Part shown: piece after piece, positions 1-24,364 of the stretch
Position numbering within the stretch: the stretch's first letter is position 1
Layout: each line of letters starts with the position of its first letter
Source of the DNA: a virus
Reading direction: 5' to 3' (one strand)
Virus record (IMG/VR): IMGVR_UViG_3300030090_000116
Location: 1-24,364 of that record
DNA: 24,364 nucleotides
The notes under the pieces: generated by a model
What the model saw: the letters and a program-made list of their open reading frames with translations, nothing else
Told to the model about the DNA's origin: nothing
The model's database searches: none
Position numbers and translations under genes: made by a program

Positions 1-3000
1 CTTCCTAATGTGTCTGACGTTAAAGATGTTGCTCCTATCGCTACGTTGTAGTCTGCATCTGTAAGTGCGTCACCTGCGGTGGCCCCCATGAGGGTGTTGC
101 TAACGCCCGTAGTGATGTCGTTACCAACAAAGTGTCCAACAGCAGTGTTGTTGGCACTTGTGGTGGTAGTGAAGTTTTGTGCCGCTAATGTATCAGAGCC
201 AATTGCAACAGACCTTGTACCCTCAGTGTCTACGCCTAAAGCGTTGTAGCCCAGTGCGGTATTCAATCCGCCTGTTTGCAGAGCGTCTCCAGAAAAACCA
301 CCGATTAAGGTATTTTTAGTGCCTGTTGTTACAGAAATCCCAGCGCCATAGCCAACCGCTGTGTTATAGGTAAGGGTTGCAGTTGTCATATTTTGAGCGG
401 CCAGAGTGCCATAACCTACAGCAGTCGAACGGCTTCCTAACGTATCAGCACTCAAAGCTGAAGTGCCTACTGCAACATTACGATCTGCGTCAGTAAGTGA
501 ATCACCAGCTAAACCGCCAATAATTACGTTATTAAGTCCTACGGTTAAAGAAGCCGCTGAGTTATAACCAACAGCAACATTATAATGAACAGTTGCTGTC
601 GTGAAATTCTGGCTAAGAAGAGCGCCATACCCTATAGCTGTGGCTGTAGCTCCTTGAACATCCGCGCTTAAAGAAGCATACCCAAGGGTCGAATTATAAT
701 ACCCGGTGGTCAGAACATCTCCTGCAAACGTACCTATGAGGGTATTCCTAGTCGCCGTAGTAATGTCATTACCAGCGGCGTAACCAACGGCTACGTTAGC
801 AACGGTTGTTGATGTAGCACTGGTTTGATTTTCAAGAGCGCCATAGCCTACTGCCGTACTTGCATTCCCTTCAACCTCTGTACTCATAGCATCAGGGCCA
901 ATCGCTATGTTGTAATCTCCACCATTAACAGCATCACCAGCATTCGCTCCTACGAATACGTTATATCTGCCGTCAGTTAATTGTTGCCCTGCATAGTACC
1001 CCACAGCAACATTGTTACTAGCTAACGATGTCGTAAAGTTTTGATTTTGTAGCGCCCCCATTCCTAGGGCGGTGGTGCGTGTTCCTCTTGTGTCGCTACT
1101 TAAAGCAGCTTGCCCAACGGCGGTATTAAGATTAGCGTCTGTAAGCGCGTCTCCAGCACTAGCACCAATCAGGGTGTTTGAAGTCCCCGTAGTAATTTCT
1201 TTTCCCGCTAACGTGCCAACTGCGGTGTTCAAACTATTTTGGGCTGTGCCCATGTCTTGTTCTTTAAGGGCTTGAAAGCCTATTGCAACTGAGCGACTTC
1301 CTACAGTATCTGAACTTAATGCTTCCACACCCACTGCGACGTTGTAATCTGCGTCAGTAAGCGCATCACCAGCAGCACCGCCGATGAGGGTGTTTTGAAT
1401 TCCTGTGGTCACTGCAAAACCAGCAATATGACCCACGGCAGTGTTATAGGTTGTTGTGCCTCCACCAACATTTTGTGTTGTTAGCGCAGAAGAACCAATT
1501 GCAACAGACCTTGTACCTGCGGTCTCTTGACTTAAAGCGTTGTAGCCAAATGCAGAATTAAAATCGCCTGTTGTAATCGCATCGCCAACATCGGCACCAA
1601 CTAAGGTGTTCTTAATGCCCGTTGTGACGTTGTAACCAGTTTGAAATCCAACAGCAGTATTAAACGAATTAGTTGCGGTCGTAAATTCTTGGTTATATAA
1701 GGTTGAATACCCCAAAGCAGTTGAACGGCTTCCGTTCACGTCTCTGGTTAAAGCGCCCATGCCAACCGCTACGTTGTAATCTGCGTCAGTTAGGGCATCC
1801 CCTGCCGTACTTCCAAGCAAAACATTCCTAATGCCTGTGGTGACGGCGGCTCCAGCATTGTTACCGACAGCGACGTTGTGACTGTCTGTTGCGGTCGTAT
1901 AGGCTTGGTTATTAAGAGCGGCATAACCTATAGCAGTCGAACGACTTCCTAATGTATCAGTGCTTAGAGCGGCCATGCCCACGGCGGTGTTGTAATCTGC
2001 ATCAGTGAGGGCATCACCTGCAAGACCGCCAACGATAGTGTTGTTAATTCCTGTTGTTACAGCACCGCCAGCACTAGTGCCCACGCCTACATTGTAGCCA
2101 TTAGTTGCTGTCGTAAAATTTTGAACACCCAGTGCCGCATACCCCACAGCAGTTGCGCGACTTCCCATTGTGTCTGAACCCAAGGCGCTATACCCAATGG
2201 CTACATTATTGTCAGCATCAGTAAGAACATCTCCCGCAAGACTGCCAATGAGGGTGTTGAGAGTCCCAGTGCTTATATCATGACCAGCCTGATATCCAAC
2301 CGCTACGTTGTAACTATTTGTTGCGGTCGTAAAATTCTGAGCCACAAGAGCCTCATGCCCCATCGCTGTGGCCCTACTCCCTAAAGTATCTGATCCTAGT
2401 GCAGATTTCCCAACGACTGTATTAGAGTCAGCGTCAGTAAGAGCATCCCCTGAATATGCTCCCAATAAGGTATTCTCAATGCCTGTTGTGACGGCCCCAC
2501 CAGCAGAATAGCCTACCGCTACGTTAGCACTGTTAGTCGCGGTAGTGTAGTTTTGTGAGCTAAGAGTTTGATACCCTACAGCGGTTGAGCGGCTTCCTAC
2601 AGTATCTAACTGTAACGATGTTCGCCCTATACCAACATTACGGACACCAGTTGTAAGTGATGTTGCTGCACCAGCGCCAATAATTACATTCTCAGTTCCT
2701 GTCGTGACATTTCGCGCAGCAAGGTCGCCAATAGCTACGTTGTGACCATCAGCACCAGCATTTTGATCTTCAAGCGCCTTATAACCAACAGCTACGTTTT
2801 TACCATCTCCATCTTCTGTTTTAAGGGCGTCCACGCCAATGGCAATATTACGGTCGCCCGTCGTAATGGCGGTGCCAGCATCCTTACCAATAGTAATGTT
2901 GTATGCGCCATCAGAGGTAATACTGTCGCCAGCATCTTCACCAATACGAAGGTTATCTGTACCCGCTGTTGCGGTGATTAAGTCTGCGCCAGCCTCAATC

Positions 3001-4088
3001 GTGGTGTTGCCAGAGATCGCAACAGTGCCGTTGAAATCGAGCGCGGTTGCATTAAGTTCAATTTCATCTGTCGCGTTAATGTCTAGGACAGTATTACTTG
3101 GAGCATTAATAAACTGACTAGCATCATGAAACTGCAATGCCATTGTGCTATTAAGAAGTAAGCCGGTATCTGCAACGTGCGTTAGTGTTACATCGTTGTC
3201 CGCACCGAACCCAAGGACTGCTGCATCGCTGTTTAGCTTGAGGTCATCTGCAACACTTACGTCTCCACCTACAGTAGCATCACCTGATAAGAATAAATTG
3301 CGAGGGCGAGTGGCCCCAGACGCACCAATATCATAGGTGTTATCGGTAAAAATAAGGTTTGATGCGACTGTGGACGTTACAGTCAACGTATCAGACGCGG
3401 CATTACCAATTACTGTATTACCAGTGATGGTTAAATCAGCCGCTGAAATAGACCCCGTTAGTGACGGTGACGAGATTGTAGGTCCTGTCAGAGTCTTATT
3501 CGTAAGCGTTTCAGTACCAGCTAACGTAGCCAACGTGCCCGTGGTGGGAAGTGTTACGTTAGTTGCACCTGTAGTTGTTAGGGTGAGTGCATTCGCACCA
3601 GATGTTGTAAACGCCGCTGCGGTCGTTAAGTTTCCTGCAAGAGAGACTGTATACCCACCAACTGATAACGATGCGATATTCGTAGCACCTTCAAGGACAT
3701 TAGTGCCATCGCAGAAAAGAAACATTGTCTTGCCGTTTGGTATCGCAATACCTGTACCGCTAGACGTTTTAAGTGTAGCGGCTTGGCCTGAAGCATTCTT
3801 AGCGATGTAGATTTTAGCCGCTGCGGGGCATATAACAGTCGCTGCCCCAGTAAGACTTGACCCAGTATCTGTAAACTCCAGCATGGCTGCACGCGACTCG
3901 GAGGTAGTTCCATCTGCGGTAGTCAACGTATGCGAGTTGGAAGACCACGAGTTTATAACTGCACGGCCAGCAATAGCCTCTTCAACCATAGACGTGATGT
4001 TGTTGTTTACTACATCACCCCAAGTACCGCTAAGTTCTCCTTGGACAGGAAGGGCGAGTTTAAGTATCGAAGTGTACTGTGTTGTCAT
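1..4088 (-). CDS. Large repetitive tail fibre / adhesin-like protein (3' end outside window)
   Basis: The frame is open from the ATG at 4088 to the left edge, giving at least 1362 codons without a stop. TGAGGATTAAAAC precedes the ATG and supplies a Shine-Dalgarno site. The N-terminus contains LKLALPVQGELSGTWGDVVN followed by EEAIAG, an opening I associate with marine phage fibre or tail proteins. Residues about 100-330 are Thr/Ser/Ala-rich and include TLTNKTLTGPTISSPSLTGS, typical of fibre shafts. From about residue 370 onward the protein is made of NVAIGxxAG / TTGxxNTLIG motifs, which resemble the YadA head repeat (a left-handed beta-roll). The last gene of the visible late operon, it most likely forms a trimeric host-contact fibre. 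Fibre assignment is good; receptor, chaperone domain and true length cannot be seen. Confidence 0.8.
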   Translation of the reverse strand, partial: MTTQYTSILKLALPVQGELSGTWGDVVNNNITSMVEEAIAGRAVINSWSSNSHTLTTADGTTSESRAAMLEFTDTGSSLTGAATVICPAAAKIYIAKNASGQAATLKTSSGTGIAIPNGKTMFLFCDGTNVLEGATNIASLSVGGYTVSLAGNLTTAAAFTTSGANALTLTTTGATNVTLPTTGTLATLAGTETLTNKTLTGPTISSPSLTGSISAADLTITGNTVIGNAASDTLTVTSTVASNLIFTDNTYDIGASGATRPRNLFLSGDATVGGDVSVADDLKLNSDAAVLGFGADNDVTLTHVADTGLLLNSTMALQFHDASQFINAPSNTVLDINATDEIELNATALDFNGTVAISGNTTIEAGADLITATAGTDNLRIGEDAGDSITSDGAYNITIGKDAGTAITTGDRNIAIGVDALKTEDGDGKNVAVGYKALEDQNAGADGHNVAIGDLAARNVTTGTENVIIGAGAATSLTTGVRNVGIGRTSLQLDTVGSRSTAVGYQTLSSQNYTTATNSANVAVGYSAGGAVTTGIENTLLGAYSGDALTDADSNTVVGKSALGSDTLGSRATAMGHEALVAQNFTTATNSYNVAVGYQAGHDISTGTLNTLIGSLAGDVLTDADNNVAIGYSALGSDTMGSRATAVGYAALGVQNFTTATNGYNVGVGTSAGGAVTTGINNTIVGGLAGDALTDADYNTAVGMAALSTDTLGSRSTAIGYAALNNQAYTTATDSHNVAVGNNAGAAVTTGIRNVLLGSTAGDALTDADYNVAVGMGALTRDVNGSRSTALGYSTLYNQEFTTATNSFNTAVGFQTGYNVTTGIKNTLVGADVGDAITTGDFNSAFGYNALSQETAGTRSVAIGSSALTTQNVGGGTTTYNTAVGHIAGFAVTTGIQNTLIGGAAGDALTDADYNVAVGVEALSSDTVGSRSVAIGFQALKEQDMGTAQNSLNTAVGTLAGKEITTGTSNTLIGASAGDALTDANLNTAVGQAALSSDTRGTRTTALGMGALQNQNFTTSLASNNVAVGYYAGQQLTDGRYNVFVGANAGDAVNGGDYNIAIGPDAMSTEVEGNASTAVGYGALENQTSATSTTVANVAVGYAAGNDITTATRNTLIGTFAGDVLTTGYYNSTLGYASLSADVQGATATAIGYGALLSQNFTTATVHYNVAVGYNSAASLTVGLNNVIIGGLAGDSLTDADRNVAVGTSALSADTLGSRSTAVGYGTLAAQNMTTATLTYNTAVGYGAGISVTTGTKNTLIGGFSGDALQTGGLNTALGYNALGVDTEGTRSVAIGSDTLAAQNFTTTTSANNTAVGHFVGNDITTGVSNTLMGATAGDALTDADYNVAIGATSLTSDTLG
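3..2594 (-). repeat. Twelve in-register 216-bp (72-codon) repeats inside the fibre gene
   Basis: The Ser/Arg codon of the DTLGS-like motif falls at 2, 434, 1298, 1946 and 2594. These intervals are exact multiples of 216, so twelve units of 72 codons are packed without a net indel, and the array continues past the left edge. Each unit holds about four rungs: STAVGYxAL-QNxTTAT, NVAVGxxAGxxVTTG, NTLIGxxAGDALTDAD and NVAIGxxALxxDTLGS. Units have diverged in DNA sequence while rung glycines and asparagines are kept. Shorter, irregular rungs of the same kind lie at about 2600-2960. Confidence 0.85.
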
Positions 4089-18533: not shown

Positions 18534-18764
18534 GGAGGTTGGGACTCCTACCGGGGGGTGTTCCTATATATGAGGGGGGTGGGGGTCGAACTCAGGAAAA
18601 ACACGATAGTTCGTGCAGATTAGTAATATATAGATAATACAGAGTCCCAATGTGACAACGGGGTCATGGGGGGCGGGTATGGTCTAGCCGATCCGGTTTT
18701 GTTAGTGTCGCACTAACAAACGTGACAGATAATATATAAACGTGCCAGATTGTACGAACATCTA
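18534..18764. other. Divergent intergenic control region
   Basis: No gene is supported here. It holds three plus-strand G-tracts (18551-18590 and 18669-18680), a 9-bp inverted repeat TTGGGACTC (18539-18547) / GAGTCCCAA (18642-18650), a small hairpin CACGA-TAGT-TCGTG (18602-18615), two extra GATAAT boxes (about 18632 and 18728) without good -35 partners, and palindrome copy 1. It separates the leftward late promoter from the rightward early promoter. A cohesive-end or pac site near terS is conceivable but nothing proves it. Confidence 0.6.
18701..18717. repeat. 17-bp palindrome GTTAGTG-N3-CACTAAC, copy 1
   Basis: GTTAGTG TCG CACTAAC. The symmetry extends 3 bp further on each side (TTT/AAA). 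It lies 47 bp upstream of the -35 of early promoter 1. Confidence 0.9.
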
Positions 18765-18793
18765 TTGACACGTTACCATGTGTTCGCGATAAT
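18765..18793 (+). promoter_or_regulatory. Early promoter 1
   Basis: TTGACA (18765-18770), 17-nt spacer, GATAAT (18788-18793): a perfect -35 and 5/6 -10. Expected start about 18800. The same hexamers and spacer occur in early promoter 2. Confidence 0.8.
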
Positions 18794-18802
18794 GGTCGGC
18801 GT

Positions 18803-18820
18803 CAACAGCGGGTGCTGTTG
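18803..18820 (+). promoter_or_regulatory. Leader hairpin of early unit 1
   Basis: CAACAGC-GGGT-GCTGTTG gives a 7-bp perfect stem with a 4-nt loop, a few bases after the predicted transcript start. Bases 18807-18819 are the exact complement of 20202-20214 in the other early leader. Downstream, AACTTAAC (18829-18836) is also shared with that leader. Confidence 0.6.
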
Positions 18821-18857
18821 GCTATATAAACTTAACTGTCAACATAAGGATATTGAC

Positions 18858-19370
18858 ATGCGCACTTTAACTACTCAGACAATCTCAGCAATTTCAAATG
18901 CTGTATCACGTTCGATCAATGCGGACAAAGCAGGGGTCAAGGCGCTCGACGCACTGATAGCAGACGGGTTCGATAAACCCACTGATTTCACTTCCCCGAA
19001 ATCGGCTGACTCTACCGCGACAGCGGATGAGTTCGAAGCGATCAACGCGGCCATCGTCATGGGGTTCAGCGCTGACGTTCGGAAGCTGCTACTTAAACCA
19101 GTAAAGTCACTGTCGGAAGAACAAAAAACGACACGGCGCTACTGGCAGCAACAGATAGGTGCACGTCGTAATGACTTCAAACGCCAGCTTGAAAAGAGAC
19201 TGGCTGCTGACAAGCCAGACGGTGCTGGACCACGCAACCGCACGCTAGACCAGCGGGTTCGGGACAACCTGAACGATGTGATCAAGGCGTGTCAGAACGC
19301 TGAGGAAGCCACCTTCGATGTGCCTGACATGGTCGCGAGAGTGAAAGCAGCTCTCGAAATCTTGAAATGA
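18858..19370 (+). CDS. Early basic helical protein, unknown function (170 aa)
   Basis: AAGGA at 18846-18850 is spaced 7 nt from the ATG at 18858, and the predicted transcript starts near 18800; a frame extending back to 18750 would begin upstream of that start, so it is not used. Residues 1-65 are Ala/Ser-rich and helical. Residues about 85-125 are strongly basic (TRRYWQQQIGARRNDFKRQL, EKRLAADKPDGAGPRNR). The C-terminus is helical (VRDNLNDVIKACQNAEEATF, VKAALEILK). I recall short phage proteins with KRYWQQQIGxRxxDxxRxL but not a function. First gene of early unit 1; DNA or RNA binding is an inference from charge. It could be the regulator of the nearby palindromes, but no HTH is clear. Confidence 0.75.
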   Translation: MRTLTTQTISAISNAVSRSINADKAGVKALDALIADGFDKPTDFTSPKSADSTATADEFEAINAAIVMGFSADVRKLLLKPVKSLSEEQKTTRRYWQQQIGARRNDFKRQLEKRLAADKPDGAGPRNRTLDQRVRDNLNDVIKACQNAEEATFDVPDMVARVKAALEILK

Positions 19371-19543
19371 AACGACTGGGAGAGACAGCGGGGGCCATCA
19401 TGGCCCTCGCACTCACCGGGTCTCTGATAGCACTCATGTTTGCTAACGTGTTACTGGGATGTGACACATGGGACGAGACGCTTTGGACCCCATCCAATTC
19501 ATGCATAACACCAACGATGGTCTGGGAAGCCATCACAGGGTAA
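19367..19543 (+). CDS. Small membrane or lipoprotein-like peptide (58 aa)
   Basis: ATG at 19367 overlaps the previous stop (ATGA). The product is MKRLGETAGAIMALALTGSL followed by IALMFANVLLGC and then a soluble tail with two Trp-containing stretches and a second Cys. A basic start, one hydrophobic segment (about residues 9-31) and LLGC at 29-32 resemble a lipoprotein signal with a lipobox, though the signal is long; a single-pass inner-membrane anchor is the alternative. A terminator begins 8 nt past the stop, so the gene closes the operon. It could act at the host envelope (superinfection exclusion or lysis control), which is speculation. Confidence 0.65.
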   Translation: MKRLGETAGAIMALALTGSLIALMFANVLLGCDTWDETLWTPSNSCITPTMVWEAITG

Positions 19544-19550
19544 CAATTGA

Positions 19551-19576
19551 AACAGGGCTTCGGCCCTGTTTTTTTG
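19551..19576 (+). terminator. Rho-independent terminator of early unit 1
   Basis: AACAGGGC-TTCG-GCCCTGTT gives an 8-bp perfect stem closed by a UUCG tetraloop, followed by TTTTT. A textbook terminator right after the 58-aa gene. Confidence 0.9.
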
Positions 19577-19584
19577 TGCCTGTT

Positions 19585-19617
19585 GATACCAGTTCCTAAT
19601 GTCGCGCTAAGCCTCTG
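19585..19617 (+). repeat. 33-bp direct repeat, copy 1
   Basis: GATACCAGTTCCTAATGTCG followed by CGCTAAGCCTCTG. It matches 19736-19768 at 30 of 33 positions, 151 bp apart. Its TAATGTCGCGCTAAG part looks like a decayed version of the 17-bp palindrome. Confidence 0.8.
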
Positions 19618-19659
19618 AGCACGTGTTAGCACAAGCGGTGTGACGCGAGACTTGGTCCT

Positions 19660-19713
19660 ACCATTGGTAATATTGCCGCCCGCATCATTACCCACAACAG
19701 CATTGTACGAAAC
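19660..19713 (-). other. Short fragment resembling the fibre repeat
   Basis: Read on the minus strand the 54 bases encode V-SYNAVVGNDAGGNITNG. The fibre repeat at about 1840-1890 reads SHNVAVGNNAGAAVTTG and others read SYNVAVGYQAGHDISTG, so 9-10 of 17 residues match, including the N, G and AG anchor positions. There is no start codon or surrounding gene. It may be a stray copy of fibre sequence; chance similarity is not excluded. Confidence 0.4.
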
Positions 19714-19714
19714 T

Positions 19715-19731
19715 GTTAGTGCCGCACTAAC
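19715..19731. repeat. 17-bp palindrome, copy 2
   Basis: GTTAGTG CCG CACTAAC, with symmetry extended by one T/A pair. It lies between the fibre-like fragment and the second 33-bp direct repeat. Confidence 0.9.
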
Positions 19732-19735
19732 ACAA

Positions 19736-19768
19736 GATACCAGTTCCTAGTGTCGCGCTGAGCCTTTG
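19736..19768 (+). repeat. 33-bp direct repeat, copy 2
   Basis: GATACCAGTTCCTAGTGTCG followed by CGCTGAGCCTTTG; three differences from copy 1. It starts 5 bp after palindrome copy 2. Confidence 0.8.
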
Positions 19769-20126
19769 TTCGGGGTAATGTTCGTAATGTTCGGTAAAAG
19801 TTCGGTTTTTGAAAGTATCAATCGTACAATACGTTTTGATGTCAGCCGTTAGCAATTCACGCGAAGCGTTGGCATATCCTTCCTATCAGCTTTTGTAGTT
19901 TATTTAGTTTTCTTATTATATATATATATTATTCGTTTTATAAAAAAGTATATACGGGGGGTAAAGTTAGTGTGGCACTAACAATATTCGTTTTCTCCCC
20001 TCTTCGTTCTCCCCTCTCCGCGCTAGTCCTCACTCCTAAAATTAGCGAACAATCGAACTTTACTTTCAAATCAAATACTTACTTCCGAACAATGTAAGAA
20101 CTTTACACATAACAACAGAACTTTAC
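19765..20126. other. Candidate replication origin / iteron region
   Basis: Gene-free stretch. TAATGTTCG occurs twice in perfect tandem (19776-19784 and 19785-19793), followed by GTAAAAGTTCGG. An AT-rich core spans about 19885-19955 and includes a run of alternating T and A at about 19915-19930. On the far side CGAACAAT (20046-20053 and 20086-20093) is close to the reverse complement of the left-hand motif, and GAACTTTAC is repeated at 20055, 20098 and 20118. Short repeats of opposite orientation flanking an AT-rich core fit an origin; no initiator gene is in view, so this is a proposal. Confidence 0.4.
19966..19982. repeat. 17-bp palindrome, copy 3
   Basis: GTTAGTG TGG CACTAAC, at the right border of the AT-rich core. 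Confidence 0.9.
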
Positions 20127-20151
20127 ACTTCTAAACACGTTTTGGTAACAT

Positions 20152-20180
20152 TTGACATACCTCGCTACCTATGAGATAAT
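20152..20180 (+). promoter_or_regulatory. Early promoter 2
   Basis: TTGACA (20152-20157), 17-nt spacer, GATAAT (20175-20180). Expected start about 20187. It drives the 305-aa, AAA+ and VWA genes. Confidence 0.8.
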
Positions 20181-20181
20181 A

Positions 20182-20255
20182 GTTAAGTTGGTGAGGGGTC
20201 TAACAGCACCCGCTCTTGTCCTAACGACAGGTGGCCCCTCATCAACGAACTTAAC
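20182..20255 (+). promoter_or_regulatory. Structured 5' leader of early unit 2
   Basis: GTTGGTGAGGGG (20187-20198) pairs with CCCCTCATCAAC (20235-20246), 12 bp with one G-U, starting at the predicted first transcribed base. Inside, CACC...TGTC-CTAAC-GACAGGTG can form a second hairpin. GTTAAG (20182-20187) and CTTAAC (20250-20255) add an outer inverted repeat. Bases 20202-20214 are exactly complementary to the leader of early unit 1. AGGAG at 20268-20272 is left free for ribosomes. No known riboswitch class was recognised. Confidence 0.6.
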
Positions 20256-20278
20256 CATATGTCATACAGGAGAACGAC

Positions 20279-21196
20279 ATGACAGACCAAAACAATGTTA
20301 GTGCGACACTAACAAGTCAACCCGCAGTAACGGCACCATCCATTGGCTCTGCGTCAATGTTGGTAGAACTCAGCATCAGCACATGGACTGGACGCAAGCT
20401 AGACAAGAGTGCGTCACGTAATGTTGTCGCAATGAACAATGCCGACCGAGGTATTGCCAATGTGCACAAAAAGCTGCTGGGCAACTGCGATGAACTCACG
20501 GCTGTACAGAAGTTTACAGCTAACGTCCGTAACCTACATTACGACATGACCATGCCGTGGTCCGACACTGGACTTCGACTACTGCCGACTGCTCAGTACT
20601 TCAAGTATCACGAAACATTGACCGAGGTGCAGTCCGAGTATCAGCGTCTCGTAGATGAATTCCTTAACACATACGACTGGGCCATCAGCCAGTCACAAGC
20701 TCGACTGGGTAAGTTGTTCTCATACAGCGACTATCCATCCGCCAGTAGTCTAGCGTCGAAATTCAAGTTTCGGTTCAGCTACATCCCACTGCCAGATGCG
20801 GGTGACTTCAGGGTGGACATTGGCAACGAGGGTAACGAGTTAGTACGTAACCACTACGAGAATTACTACTCCGAGCAACTGACCAACGCTATGAATGATG
20901 TATGGCAGCGAGCGTTCAAAGCATTGAGCAAGATGTCCGAGCGACTCGACTATGCCGATCACGAACAGAAGAAGGTGTTTCGTGACACCCTCGTATCCAA
21001 CGTGGTCGATCTTGTCGAGCTACTGGACGTATGCAACATAACAGGTGACAGTCAGATGTCAGCTATGCGTATGAAACTGGACGATGCCCTACGTGGTATC
21101 ACACCGGATGCGTTGCGCGAGGACGGCTACCTACGTGCAGAAACTAAACGTGCCGTTGATGATGTCATCAAGTCACTTCCTTCAATTGACCTTTAA
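20279..21196 (+). CDS. MoxR/VWA-associated protein, possibly DUF3150-like (305 aa)
   Basis: No catalytic motif is visible. After a low-complexity Ser/Thr/Ala start of about 25 residues comes SMLVELSISTWTGRKLDKSA, then VVAMNNADRGIANVHKKLLG, a helical middle (YHETLTEVQSEYQRLVDEFL) and a long helical C-terminus (LTNAMNDVWQRAFKALSKMS). Proteins with an LxISxWxGRKxDK start are encoded beside MoxR ATPase and VWA genes in phages and plasmids; I think DUF3150 is the right family but cannot verify. AGGAG stands 6 nt before the ATG. Codons 7-12 contain palindrome copy 4. It is probably a partner or substrate adaptor for the ATPase-VWA pair encoded next. Confidence 0.75.
   Translation: MTDQNNVSATLTSQPAVTAPSIGSASMLVELSISTWTGRKLDKSASRNVVAMNNADRGIANVHKKLLGNCDELTAVQKFTANVRNLHYDMTMPWSDTGLRLLPTAQYFKYHETLTEVQSEYQRLVDEFLNTYDWAISQSQARLGKLFSYSDYPSASSLASKFKFRFSYIPLPDAGDFRVDIGNEGNELVRNHYENYYSEQLTNAMNDVWQRAFKALSKMSERLDYADHEQKKVFRDTLVSNVVDLVELLDVCNITGDSQMSAMRMKLDDALRGITPDALREDGYLRAETKRAVDDVIKSLPSIDL
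20297..20313. repeat. 17-bp palindrome, copy 4 (inside gene start)
   Basis: GTTAGTG CGA CACTAAC, 18 nt downstream of the A of the ATG at 20279, encoding VSATLT at residues 7-12. Symmetry extends by one T/A pair. Confidence 0.9.
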
Positions 21197-21199
21197 TCA

Positions 21200-21216
21200 G
21201 TTAGTGCCGCACTAAC
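21200..21216. repeat. 17-bp palindrome, copy 5 (between stop and ribosome site)
   Basis: GTTAGTG CCG CACTAAC, 3 nt after the stop of the 305-aa gene and just before the AGGAG of the AAA+ gene. Confidence 0.9.
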
Positions 21217-21230
21217 AACAGGAGAACTAT

Positions 21231-22325
21231 ATGAACTCTGCAACTCAAATGTACTCACTCGGTCTTGCCCAAATAGGTAACGCTATTCGTGTCGGTGGTC
21301 ATCAACGCACCATTCTAGTCGAAGGGCACATGGGCACAGGTAAATCCTCACTGCTCAACACGCTATCGCGTGAGTTACCAAACCGCCTTTCGTGCTACTT
21401 CGACTGTACCACCAAAGACCTCGGTGACATTTCCATCCCCGATCTGGCTCACCTCGACAACGGTTCAGGGTACGTTACATACCTGACCAATGAGGAACTG
21501 GGTGCACACAACGATAAGCCGATTATTCTGATGATCGACGAATACGGCAAGGCCAACCCTGCTGTGAAGAACTCACTGCTACGCCTCATGCTCGAACGCA
21601 AGATTGGTAGCTACACGCTACACCCTGACTCGATAATCTTTGCCACCACTAATCTTGGTGCTGAGGGTGTCGGTGATCTACTGCCACCCCATGCACGGAA
21701 CCGCATCACGGTCGTGACCTCACGCAAGCCAGACAACATGGAGTGGATCGAGTGGGGTATCAACAACGGTGTCGAACACACCCTGCTAGGTTGGTGCAAG
21801 GACAACCCGCACCTGTTTCACAGTTTTGAGGATGTCAAAGACCCCGACGACAATCCCTATATCTACCACCCCAAGCAGCAGCGCAAGGCGTTCGTCACAC
21901 CGCGTTCACTTGAGGCGGCGTCCGACTGGCTCAAGGTTCGAGATCAGTTTGATGATCAGACCCTTACAAGTTTACTCATGGGTACTATTGGTGAACGTGG
22001 CGCTATGGACCTGATGGCCTTCGTCAAGCTGGCTGACCAGCTACCGTCATTGCAATCCATCAAGGATGAACCCAAGACCGCCAAGGTGCCGGACAGTGCT
22101 GCCGCAGTATGTATGGTTGTCTACCGTACGTTGTCTACTCTTGGGGCTGACTGGGTTGACGCATGGATGGACTACATGGTGCGACTCGACAAGGAAGCGC
22201 AGGGTATGTTCGCCAACGGTGTGCAACCCGCGACCTATGCCAACCGCAAGGTGGTGATGACCAACAAGAAGTTTACTCAGTGGGCGATGGACAATAACTA
22301 CATGTTCGCCGCAGACAAGAAGTAG
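21231..22325 (+). CDS. MoxR-like AAA+ ATPase (364 aa)
   Basis: Walker A is EGHMGTGKSS (residues about 31-40), Walker B IILMIDEYGK (about 98-107, with D103 and E104), sensor 1 FATTN (about 137-141) and a candidate arginine finger in PPHARNR (about 152-158). The insert between Walker A and B is short, as in MoxR/RavA-type enzymes. The C-terminal half has FVTPRSLEAASDWLKVRD, typical of the lid of these ATPases, followed by helices. MoxR ATPases act as chaperones with a VWA protein, and such a gene follows here after 9 nt. AGGAG precedes the ATG, with palindrome copy 5 just upstream. All ATPase motifs look intact. Confidence 0.88.
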   Translation: MNSATQMYSLGLAQIGNAIRVGGHQRTILVEGHMGTGKSSLLNTLSRELPNRLSCYFDCTTKDLGDISIPDLAHLDNGSGYVTYLTNEELGAHNDKPIILMIDEYGKANPAVKNSLLRLMLERKIGSYTLHPDSIIFATTNLGAEGVGDLLPPHARNRITVVTSRKPDNMEWIEWGINNGVEHTLLGWCKDNPHLFHSFEDVKDPDDNPYIYHPKQQRKAFVTPRSLEAASDWLKVRDQFDDQTLTSLLMGTIGERGAMDLMAFVKLADQLPSLQSIKDEPKTAKVPDSAAAVCMVVYRTLSTLGADWVDAWMDYMVRLDKEAQGMFANGVQPATYANRKVVMTNKKFTQWAMDNNYMFAADKK

Positions 22326-22334
22326 GAGACCGTA

Positions 22335-23570
22335 ATGCTAGCCATAGGTAAACAACTTACACCAGAGCAGCGACTGTCCAAGGCCGTCGTTGACATCATG
22401 GGCAACCCCAAATACGTTGCCCTCGCAGGTGTCCTTATGATTGGTGACCGCACGGTGGTGGACGATGTCCCTACCGCATGTACCAACGGACGTGATGAGA
22501 AGTATGGGCGTGGCTTTGTCGATTCGCTCAACGATGCGGAGCTACGGTTCCTCGTGCTTCACGAGGTATACCACAAGCTGTACAAGCACCTAACCACGTG
22601 GCGTCATCTGTATGACGACAATCCGCAGCTTGCTAACGTAGCCTGTGATTACGTCATCAACGTCAAGATTGCAGATGACAACACGGACGGTTGGGCTACC
22701 CTACCGCAGGGCGGATGCTACTCAGACAAGTATCGTGGATGGGACAGCGCCGCAGTCTTTCGTGACATACGTGAAAACGGTTCACCACAAGATCAGCAAC
22801 AGGGGGCAGGTGTAGCGTCAGGTGATGGTCAGCCGAGTGGTGATGGTCAGCCCCAACAACCGCAGGGGTTCGATGACCATGACTGGGATGGTGCTGCCGA
22901 ACTCACACCCGATGAGCAGCGTGAACTTGCGCGTGATGTTGACGAGGCCATACGCCAAGGCGCATTGATCGCAGGTAAGGTTGGGTCAGGTGGTGATCGT
23001 GACCTCGAAGATTTGCTTACACCACAGGTGGATTGGCGCGAGGTATTGCGCGAGTTTGTTTACACCACATGTGCCGGTAATGACTACTCCACTTGGCAAC
23101 GTCCCAATCGTCGCTACGTGTCATCAGGTTATTACATGCCTAGCGGTATCAGCGAGCAGGTGGGTGAGTTGGTCATTGCTGTTGATACGTCTGGCTCCAT
23201 TGGTCAGAGGGAGCTTACGGTGTTCATGTCCGAGATACGTGGTATTTGTGACACGGTGCAGCCCGAGGCCATACGCCTACTGTACTGGGATACCAAAGTA
23301 TGTCAGGACGAGAAATACGACATGCACCAGCTCGATGATCTCGTCAAGACAACCAAGCCCAAGGGTGGTGGTGGTACTAACGTAGAGTGCGTCACCAAGT
23401 ACCTCACTGCCGAGGGTATCAAACCGCAAGCCGTCATCGTGCTAACGGACGGGTACCTTGGCGCATCATGGGGGCAATGGGCGTGCCCTCTGCTATGGTG
23501 CATCTTAGACAACAAATTAGCAAAGCCTGACACGGGTAAATACGTCAACATATCACCACAAAACTTCTGA
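22335..23570 (+). CDS. Metallopeptidase-like plus VWA domain protein (DUF2201/vMAP-like, 411 aa)
   Basis: The N-terminal part holds HEVYHKLYKH, an HExxH zinc-peptidase motif at residues 76-80, and ANVACDYVIN with a candidate third ligand D105. Residues about 148-182 are a Gln/Gly/Asp-rich linker with two GDGQPS-like repeats. The VWA domain begins near 275: DTSGSIG (284-290) is the DxSGS metal-site motif, GGGGTN supplies the Thr (348) and LTDG the Asp (372). This matches DUF2201-type proteins, also described as von Willebrand metallopeptidases, which pair with MoxR ATPases. GGAG is 6 nt before the ATG. Whether the peptidase is active is not shown, but its zinc motif is intact. Confidence 0.87.
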   Translation: MLAIGKQLTPEQRLSKAVVDIMGNPKYVALAGVLMIGDRTVVDDVPTACTNGRDEKYGRGFVDSLNDAELRFLVLHEVYHKLYKHLTTWRHLYDDNPQLANVACDYVINVKIADDNTDGWATLPQGGCYSDKYRGWDSAAVFRDIRENGSPQDQQQGAGVASGDGQPSGDGQPQQPQGFDDHDWDGAAELTPDEQRELARDVDEAIRQGALIAGKVGSGGDRDLEDLLTPQVDWREVLREFVYTTCAGNDYSTWQRPNRRYVSSGYYMPSGISEQVGELVIAVDTSGSIGQRELTVFMSEIRGICDTVQPEAIRLLYWDTKVCQDEKYDMHQLDDLVKTTKPKGGGGTNVECVTKYLTAEGIKPQAVIVLTDGYLGASWGQWACPLLWCILDNKLAKPDTGKYVNISPQNF

Positions 23571-23581
23571 GGAGAAGTAGC

Positions 23582-24364
23582 ATGTATAAGTACAAATTAG
23601 TTAGTGAAGCACTAACCCACCTTGATGCCGAAGGTAGAGAACCGACAGCCGCCAAGCAAGATCGAGCGCACAGATTTGCGGAAGCAGTTTGCAATCACCT
23701 AAGTGCCAAGATGTGCCTTAAAAATAGTTGCAGTTATTGGATATACCGTGACGATTGTCCCTATTGTCTTGGGTGGGTGGCATACGGTGACTTTCGTTAT
23801 ACCGGCAGTACAGACGATATGTATGTTGTGTACTCTCACAACATCACGAATGGCAAGTACAACGAGACTGCTAACCAGTATTACATGAAGATGTCCACCA
23901 ACATCAATACGGCAGTGCGTAATGCTAAGAAGTTTTTACGTATTATGTCACCGCAAGAGATTGCAGGCATACGTCTAAATCTAGCGCAGATAGCAGTGCA
24001 AGGCGTGGTTACTGACGCACGTGAAGAGTTTATTGATATACGTAACAGGATCATAGACGTGGAGACAAGCCTGTACTCCGCACGAATCAGTAGGGACTCG
24101 GTGCTCATGACCGAGTTACGTCATCTGATGAACAGTAACCACAAGTTTATCGATCCTACTTTCGGTGAAAATCTCACTACATTCTTTGCTAAGTGGGATG
24201 AGCTTGACACCTTGCAGACTCGCACAGTGCCTATGTGGTTTGTCCGTGTGTATGAACGCACGGGGCAGCAGATGTTCGATGTGGTTTCCATCGACAATGC
24301 CGAGGATTCGTGGAAAGCAAAGATGGGTGATGTATTACGTTACACAACAGATGACTTGCCCGAG
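23582..24364 (+). CDS. Unknown early protein (3' end outside window, at least 261 aa)
   Basis: ATG at 23582 follows GAGGAG and the frame stays open for 261 codons to the window edge. It begins MYKYKLVSEALTHL, and has Cys at CNHL, MCLKNSC, DDCPYC (CxxC at about residues 59-62), which could bind metal. Then comes FRYTGSTDDMYVVYSHNITN, a helical section (NTAVRNAKKFLRIMSPQEIA), and SARISRDSVLMTELRHLMNS. I do not recognise the family. It directly follows the VWA gene (11-nt gap), so it belongs to the same unit. Palindrome copy 6 lies at codons 7-12, exactly where copy 4 lies in the 305-aa gene. Confidence 0.75.
   Translation, partial: MYKYKLVSEALTHLDAEGREPTAAKQDRAHRFAEAVCNHLSAKMCLKNSCSYWIYRDDCPYCLGWVAYGDFRYTGSTDDMYVVYSHNITNGKYNETANQYYMKMSTNINTAVRNAKKFLRIMSPQEIAGIRLNLAQIAVQGVVTDAREEFIDIRNRIIDVETSLYSARISRDSVLMTELRHLMNSNHKFIDPTFGENLTTFFAKWDELDTLQTRTVPMWFVRVYERTGQQMFDVVSIDNAEDSWKAKMGDVLRYTTDDLPE
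23600..23616. repeat. 17-bp palindrome, copy 6 (inside gene start)
   Basis: GTTAGTG AAG CACTAAC, 18 nt downstream of the A of the ATG at 23582, encoding VSEALT at residues 7-12: same offset and frame as copy 4. Confidence 0.9.

Follow-up and report, generated by a model that had tools for sequence, protein, structure and literature searches.

Dispersed palindromes that covary with a small early protein suggest an evolving DNA-recognition code in uncultured phages

Introduction

What is the function of identical palindromes dispersed over the early genes of an uncultured phage, and which protein reads them? This question is raised by IMG/VR record IMGVR_UViG_3300030090_000116, a linear fragment of 24,364 bp (hereafter the window, meaning the whole stretch of DNA analyzed), in which the palindrome GTTAGTG-NNN-CACTAAC occurs six times. 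Comparison with related phages suggests a dispersed on/off switch with a DNA-recognition code that can be observed evolving. The palindromes are probably operators of a phage-encoded, two-fold-symmetric DNA-binding protein, namely the 170-residue product of the first early gene and its homologues. A literature search found no paper describing these palindromes.

Results

All six palindromes match the pattern without a mismatch, and the number of full sites expected from the base composition of the window is 9.6e-5. An initial reading made from the letters of the window (the sequence-only reading) had reported the same six positions and centers with invariant arms and a chance expectation of about 0.0001, and both statements were confirmed. 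No extra copy was found when one or two mismatches were allowed, and three mismatches gave two matches only, at 493 and 4226 (1.48 expected after shuffling). Unpaired GTTAGTG half-sites lie at 3181, 3457, and 10702, of which the first and last had been seen before and the one at 3457 missed; because 1.4 are expected per strand, these half-sites are chance occurrences. Palindromes 4 and 6 (at 20297 and 23600; Table 1) are coding and occupy codons 7–12, where they specify the peptide V-S-x-x-L-T, and the other four lie between genes. The motif has a single open reading frame (ORF) through its sequence, and therefore a coding placement is possible only in that frame. A repeat of about 30 bp, GATACCAGTTCCTARTGTCGCGCTRAGCCT, is present in two copies adjoining palindrome 2 (19579–19780), and a AGAACTGGTWTC-like element also stands next to a palindrome in relatives L052, L092, G004, and G006. 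It may represent a conserved RNA or another binding site.

Relatives of the AAA protein of the window are encoded in 355 viral stretches, and the GTTAGTG-NNN-CACTAAC pattern is present in at least 119 viral contig stretches. The system recurs in hundreds of uncultured water phages of roughly 60–68 kb. We searched the AAA-bearing phages for repeated palindromes without presupposing a sequence. Nearly all of them carry a single palindrome 4–13 times, its arms being 7 bp and its center 3 or 4 bp long, and the next unrelated palindrome family in the same phage usually has one or two copies. About ten arms were seen, with GTTAGTG the commonest and the others being GTTAGTC, GTTAGGG, TTTACGG, TTTAGGG, TGTAGTG, GTTATAC, GTTATAG, GTTATGC, and GTTATCC; G002 and L322 have a relaxed GTTAGT-N5-ACTAAC palindrome. 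The arms are near-invariant within a phage, as in G015, where GTTAGGGANTCCCTAAC occurs nine times exactly and never with a single mismatch. Free drift of the arms among relatives, an outcome considered in the sequence-only reading, was not what we found, but the whole set switches between phages. The center had been called free, and it does vary among the six sites of the window, but centers tend to be alike within a phage, and those of other operator types are to some extent fixed, with self-complementary sequences (AATT, AGCT, ACGT, and A-N-T). AAT and ATT centers are both present in one phage.

Among 153 sites in 18 contigs, the majority lie at or near gene starts or stops. They concentrate immediately 5′ of the Shine-Dalgarno sequence, at 10–24 nt ahead of the start codon, and others fall 18–24 nt inside the ORF. 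On contigs of 60–68 kb, the sites occupy 5–25% of the length, which corresponds to the early and middle region. Two other loci, L383 (17 sites) and L376, carry GTTAGG-N6-CCTAAC palindromes whose inner bases vary, and a homologue of the first early gene product could not be detected in them; perhaps they reflect a relaxed code or a different protein.

Phages whose AAA protein is 76–100% identical to that of the window differ in the palindrome that precedes the AAA gene at one shared location. L199, with TTTACGG arms, and L200, with GTTAGTG arms, share 90% nucleotide identity over 7.4 kb and 98% identity in their AAA and VWA proteins, and their operators of unlike type stand at homologous positions between conserved flanks, the in-frame DUF3150 site included. 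L210 and L214 (AAA 97%) show a similar swap, and some homologous positions are cleanly free of sites. As types are exchanged at homologous positions, the positions predate their sequences, and sets change as a whole. On a tree built without the motif, the supported changes of arm type number at least five for each of GTTAGTG and GTTAGGG and at least three for GTTAGTC, indicating that switching of the arm type is recurrent.

The first early gene is the only neighboring gene found to change with palindrome type. Across 18 contigs, it diverges much more than the genes next to it: its product in G004 shares 25–48% identity with most others, and AAA identity is 70–81% in most. Homologues of this putative regulator were nevertheless identified in 148 loci covering eight arm types, and G001, G002, and G019 have remote forms at the equivalent location. 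At an AAA identity of 0.85–0.95, the median regulator identity was 70% for pairs with the same operator versus 32% for pairs with different operators. We scanned 13-residue segments against operator type with overall similarity controlled. The regulator gave peaks at residues 95–107 (beta 0.229) and 42–54 (0.200) and values of about 0 elsewhere, whereas the same scan reached a maximum of 0.064 in the control protein AAA and 0.072 in VWA. DUF3150 peaked only at residues 4–19, where the operator itself is encoded, which provides a built-in positive control. The sequence-only reading had named the 170-residue protein as one to check for binding, and the covariation points to the same protein.

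The AlphaFold model of the 170-residue protein (pLDDT 92.9) places residues 87–118 in one long helix; a model of the type D regulator, made from two sequences, had a pLDDT of 42. The family had no convincing match in Pfam, PHROGs, PDB sequences, or isolate phages and no match to a solved fold in the PDB, and the best viral fold match (BFVD) was an uncharacterized phage protein with an E value of 0.02. Two diverged regulator copies are present in one early region in L416 (3047–3568 and 3904–4428) and in L432 (80–718 and 1691–2272).

Pairings between helix residues and arm bases were fixed from the first alignment before more loci were fetched, and the following counts cover 77 non-redundant proteins that include this first set. 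At residue 106, D goes with G7 in 64/67 and K with C7 in 9/10. Likewise, R94 goes with G1 in 66/72 and A94 with T1 in 5/5, and K105 accompanies G6 in 8/10 and V/I105 accompanies A6 in 4/4. The new lineages that agree at residue 106 are L356, L426, L378, L358, L319, L321, L352, L385, and L430. By the remainder of its sequence, L356 groups in the GTTATAC clade, but it has GTTAGYC sites and a helix with SRLNK like that of the GTTAGTC proteins. L276 belongs to the GTTAGGG clade, has GTTAGTG sites, and carries ALVND where its sisters have SKLKD. Contacts of Asp with the cytosine opposite G7, of Lys with the guanine opposite C7, and of Arg with G1 would be chemically ordinary, and the R94/G1, D106/G7, and K106/C7 pairings look chemically sensible. 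A pairing of R98 with G2 is not claimed because it rests on a single clade.

The position of the sites relative to promoters was analyzed in 15 contigs of several types, using sigma-70-like consensus matches on the early strand and 2000 random shifts. A site was located at +20 to +190 of 12 of the 13 sense promoters with 11–12 of 12 consensus bases (2.1 expected) and of 26 of the 39 with at least 10 (6.1 expected), and these counts were reached in 0 of 2000 shifts. Upstream sites occurred at chance level, and antisense promoters were few and near chance. The nearest site overlaps the promoter (−45 to +20) in only 3 of 39 promoter-like sites, which is not the arrangement of a classical operator overlapping its promoter. 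In the window, the DUF3150 promoter follows the downstream pattern (Table 1), and the promoter at 18765 is an exception, as its nearest site lies 92 bp upstream of the start.

The terminase, portal, and capsid genes of the window are located on the minus strand, and the early genes run on the plus strand from 18.7 kb. The TerL and portal proteins have their best isolate matches in Pelagibacter, Planktothrix, and other phages with at most 48% identity, a level too low for annotating by name. The leader of the DUF3150 mRNA (20182–20260) could fold into a long hairpin (GTTAAGTTGGTGAGGGGTC ... GGCCCCTCATCAACGAACTTAAC). At 3–4088 on the minus strand, an open-ended repetitive protein of at least 1362 residues, with degenerate AVGYxAL and TGxxNTxxG repeats, is probably a tail fiber or adhesin.

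Table 1. Palindromes, promoter-like sequences, and early genes of the window
Feature	Position	Strand	Details
Palindrome 1	18701..18717		GTTAGTG-TCG-CACTAAC; divergent late/early intergenic region, upstream of first early gene
Promoter, sigma-70-like, first early gene	18765..18793	+	TTGACA-17-GATAAT; 11/12 consensus bases
First early gene (170 residues)	18858..19370	+	Proposed cognate regulator; putative recognition helix at residues 87–118, motif R94-YWQQQIGARRND106
Palindrome 2	19715..19731		Center CCG; non-coding, downstream of regulator gene
Palindrome 3	19966..19982		Center TGG; non-coding
Promoter, sigma-70-like, upstream of DUF3150 gene	20152..20180	+	TTGACA-17-GATAAT; center of palindrome 4 at about +117
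DUF3150-like early gene	20279..21196	+	E 3e-5, just under the Pfam cut-off; contains palindrome 4
Palindrome 4	20297..20313		Center CGA; in frame, 18 nt after ATG (V-S-A-T-L-T), DUF3150-like gene
Palindrome 5	21200..21216		Center CCG; between DUF3150 stop codon and Shine-Dalgarno sequence of AAA gene
MoxR-like AAA ATPase gene (phrog_1297)	21231..22325	+
DUF2201 metallopeptidase/VWA-like gene	22335..23570	+
Early gene, no assigned function	23582..24364	+	Runs off contig; contains palindrome 6
Palindrome 6	23600..23616		Center AAG; in frame, 18 nt after ATG (V-S-E-A-L-T)

Searches of 11 contigs of 60–68 kb gave no match to PF00589, PF00239, or PF01656, to ParB_N (PF02195), for which control searches were positive, or to HTH_3 (PF01381), as a classical XRE/cI-like repressor would have given. 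PF00940 (phage RNA polymerase) gave no match, and its control searches gave none either. A search of 84,980 bacterial and archaeal genomes did not recover the AAA protein. From the absence of integrase, resolvase, ParB_N, and ParA-like families in the 11 contigs and of the AAA protein from those genomes, the phages look non-integrating, as far as these contigs, which may be incomplete, can show. The capsid protein was found in only 20 contigs, nearly all of metagenome-assembled genomes. At L477 (CP070693.1, 1083058–1099963), a capsid gene 82% identical to that of the window lies inside a chromosome-scale Dehalococcoidia metagenome-assembled genome and may represent a prophage or a mis-join.

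A cultured distant relative, Planktothrix phage Pag-Yong1 (OL906435, L491), has AAA ATPase and VWA genes and about 20 palindromes with the core GGTTCA-NNN-TGAACC. These differ from the sites described above in arm sequence and in being distributed across most of the 50 kb examined, partly in late genes. Read by eye, the first early genes of Pag-Yong1 have no evident likeness to the 170-residue family; two paralogue-like genes (38932–39495 and 32003–32842) are candidate regulators.

Discussion

If the palindromes are operators, a dimer of the 170-residue protein would place one helix in each half-site, where R94 would read G1, residue 105 would read base 6, and D106 or K106 would read base 7. 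Protein bound downstream of a promoter would meet the elongating RNA polymerase and stop it, and this roadblock would shut down the early genes, the regulator's own gene included. We infer DNA binding and silencing from comparative evidence, and a roadblock that shuts the early genes is the best-supported reading, because the site lies where an elongating polymerase would pass. The sequence-only reading had offered a dimeric DNA-binding protein or an RNA stem-loop, with stoperator-like silencing as one option, and the comparative evidence together with the stoperator-like geometry lends support to this view. Speculatively, specificity may diversify since the protein would also silence related phages that enter the cell, in the manner of immunity repressors (PMC6550527).

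Several observations weigh against such an operator system. Some phages take both 3- and 4-bp centers, which is unusual for a rigid dimer. No helix-turn-helix was recognized in the 170-residue family, nor does any solved fold match it, and DNA binding thus has no support from homology. G001 and G002 have remote homologues (E values of 3e-4 and 9e-3), and the type D regulator was assigned mainly by position and, by an assumed alignment, has T at the position of D106. The promoters are consensus matches, and homologous promoters of related genomes are not independent of each other. The pairings have exceptions as well. At residue 106, G7 occurs with G in L429 and Q in L329 and C7 with Q in L425 among the new lineages, and G7 occurs with A in L072, an early locus outside the first alignment. 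L090/L076/G001-like proteins lack R94, and residue 105 deviates in L215 (K105 with T6) and L430 (S105 with G6). Among phylogenetically independent pairs, base 6 gave 3 for, 0 against, and 2 unchanged, an underpowered comparison (sign test p 0.25).

The main rival, which we regard as unlikely, is that the palindromes act as RNA hairpins with a 7-bp stem and a tri- or tetraloop in early mRNA leaders and at start codons, by which the same phage protein would repress translation or steer RNA processing. All types can be folded as hairpins, loops of 3 and 4 nt would both be acceptable, and the sites stand in transcribed leaders, many of them just 5′ of the Shine-Dalgarno sequence (10–24 nt before the start codon) or 18–24 nt inside the ORF. 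However, the arms are fixed in each phage without compensatory variation, and the self-complementary centers are needless for a loop but expected of two-fold DNA reading. These two features, and the location of palindrome 1 upstream of the promoter closest to it, lead us to prefer DNA over RNA; the mixture of AAT and ATT centers in one phage also speaks against a hairpin. With regard to hairpin promoters of the N4 type, which are used by a virion RNA polymerase, the in-frame sites located 18 nt within ORFs would be misplaced as promoters of those genes.

We give slightly less credence to activator or antitermination (nut-like) sites, at which the protein would promote transcription from near early promoters or on their transcripts. 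Like nut sites, the palindromes recur at early transcription units downstream of promoters, and a silencer is less obviously needed without an integrase. Nevertheless, lambda-type nut sites are few, come with boxA, and act as RNA, and the usual binding position of activators is upstream of −35, a region in which sites are no more frequent than chance.

A role in partition, packaging, or replication, with a structural DNA-binding protein on the sites, is improbable. Centromeres and origins typically have multicopy palindromes to which a phage protein binds. The sites described here are instead spread over 3–15 kb at single gene starts, in frame within coding sequence, and they track promoters. 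Partition, another option of the sequence-only reading, is disfavored by the lack of ParB_N and ParA-like families in the 11 contigs. A mobile palindromic repeat (repetitive extragenic palindromic or miniature inverted-repeat transposable element-like) spread by copying is very improbable, for although centers tend to be alike within a phage and site-free homologous positions separate L210 from L214, the flanks of the copies are unrelated, types replace one another at conserved positions, and the arms covary with the helix of one protein.

The operators proposed here can be compared with the stoperators of mycobacteriophage Cluster A (L5 and TipsytheTRex), which are proposed to shut down transcription by bound repressor (PMC9283540). 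Both systems have many dispersed identical sites in short intergenic spaces near gene starts, and in both the motif differs between related phages along with a small phage-encoded protein. However, L5 stoperators are 13-bp, asymmetric, and oriented and are bound by a monomer with a helix-turn-helix and a stoperator domain (PMC6550527, PMC9283540), whereas the sites here are perfect palindromes in every type and the 170-residue family has no convincing match to a known family or fold. Cluster A sites also occur in late genes, unlike these sites with their early location, and Cluster A phages are temperate, whereas no integrase, resolvase, or partition family was found in the 11 contigs searched. 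Our best reading is that this system is stoperator-like in its working but unrelated to the stoperator system and not a member of it. In plasmid RK2, about a dozen identical short palindromes (OB) dispersed on one replicon are likewise bound by one protein, KorB; this is a ParB-family protein with the partner KorA, and no ParB_N domain was found in the 11 contigs. Coliphage T1 and Citrobacter phage Stevie, which have a lytic lifestyle, carry 16–20 dispersed 22-bp repeats, mostly intergenic and of unknown role, which their authors likened to stoperators (PMC4319613). These share the dispersed, mostly intergenic placement but are asymmetric, oriented, and degenerate, with no cognate protein proposed (PMC4319613).

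More tentatively, and short of an even chance in our estimation, the regulators may form a new family of sequence-specific DNA-binding proteins with a long helix and a readable residue-to-base code. They would drive immunity-like specificity groups in integrase-less phages, in which a whole set of about ten dispersed sites is exchanged at its positions against a nearly unchanged genomic background.

The hundreds of natural regulator–site pairs would make the evolution of DNA-recognition specificity directly testable, and a network of about ten sites that switches together would be open to study. The findings suggest a stoperator-like layer of control outside the actinobacteriophages, built on an unrelated protein that matches no known fold, in uncultured phages that are abundant and apparently do not integrate. 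In Pag-Yong1, an analogous system may be accessible to laboratory experiments. If the palindrome types serve as immunity groups, the ability of related phages to share a host cell could be predicted from them.

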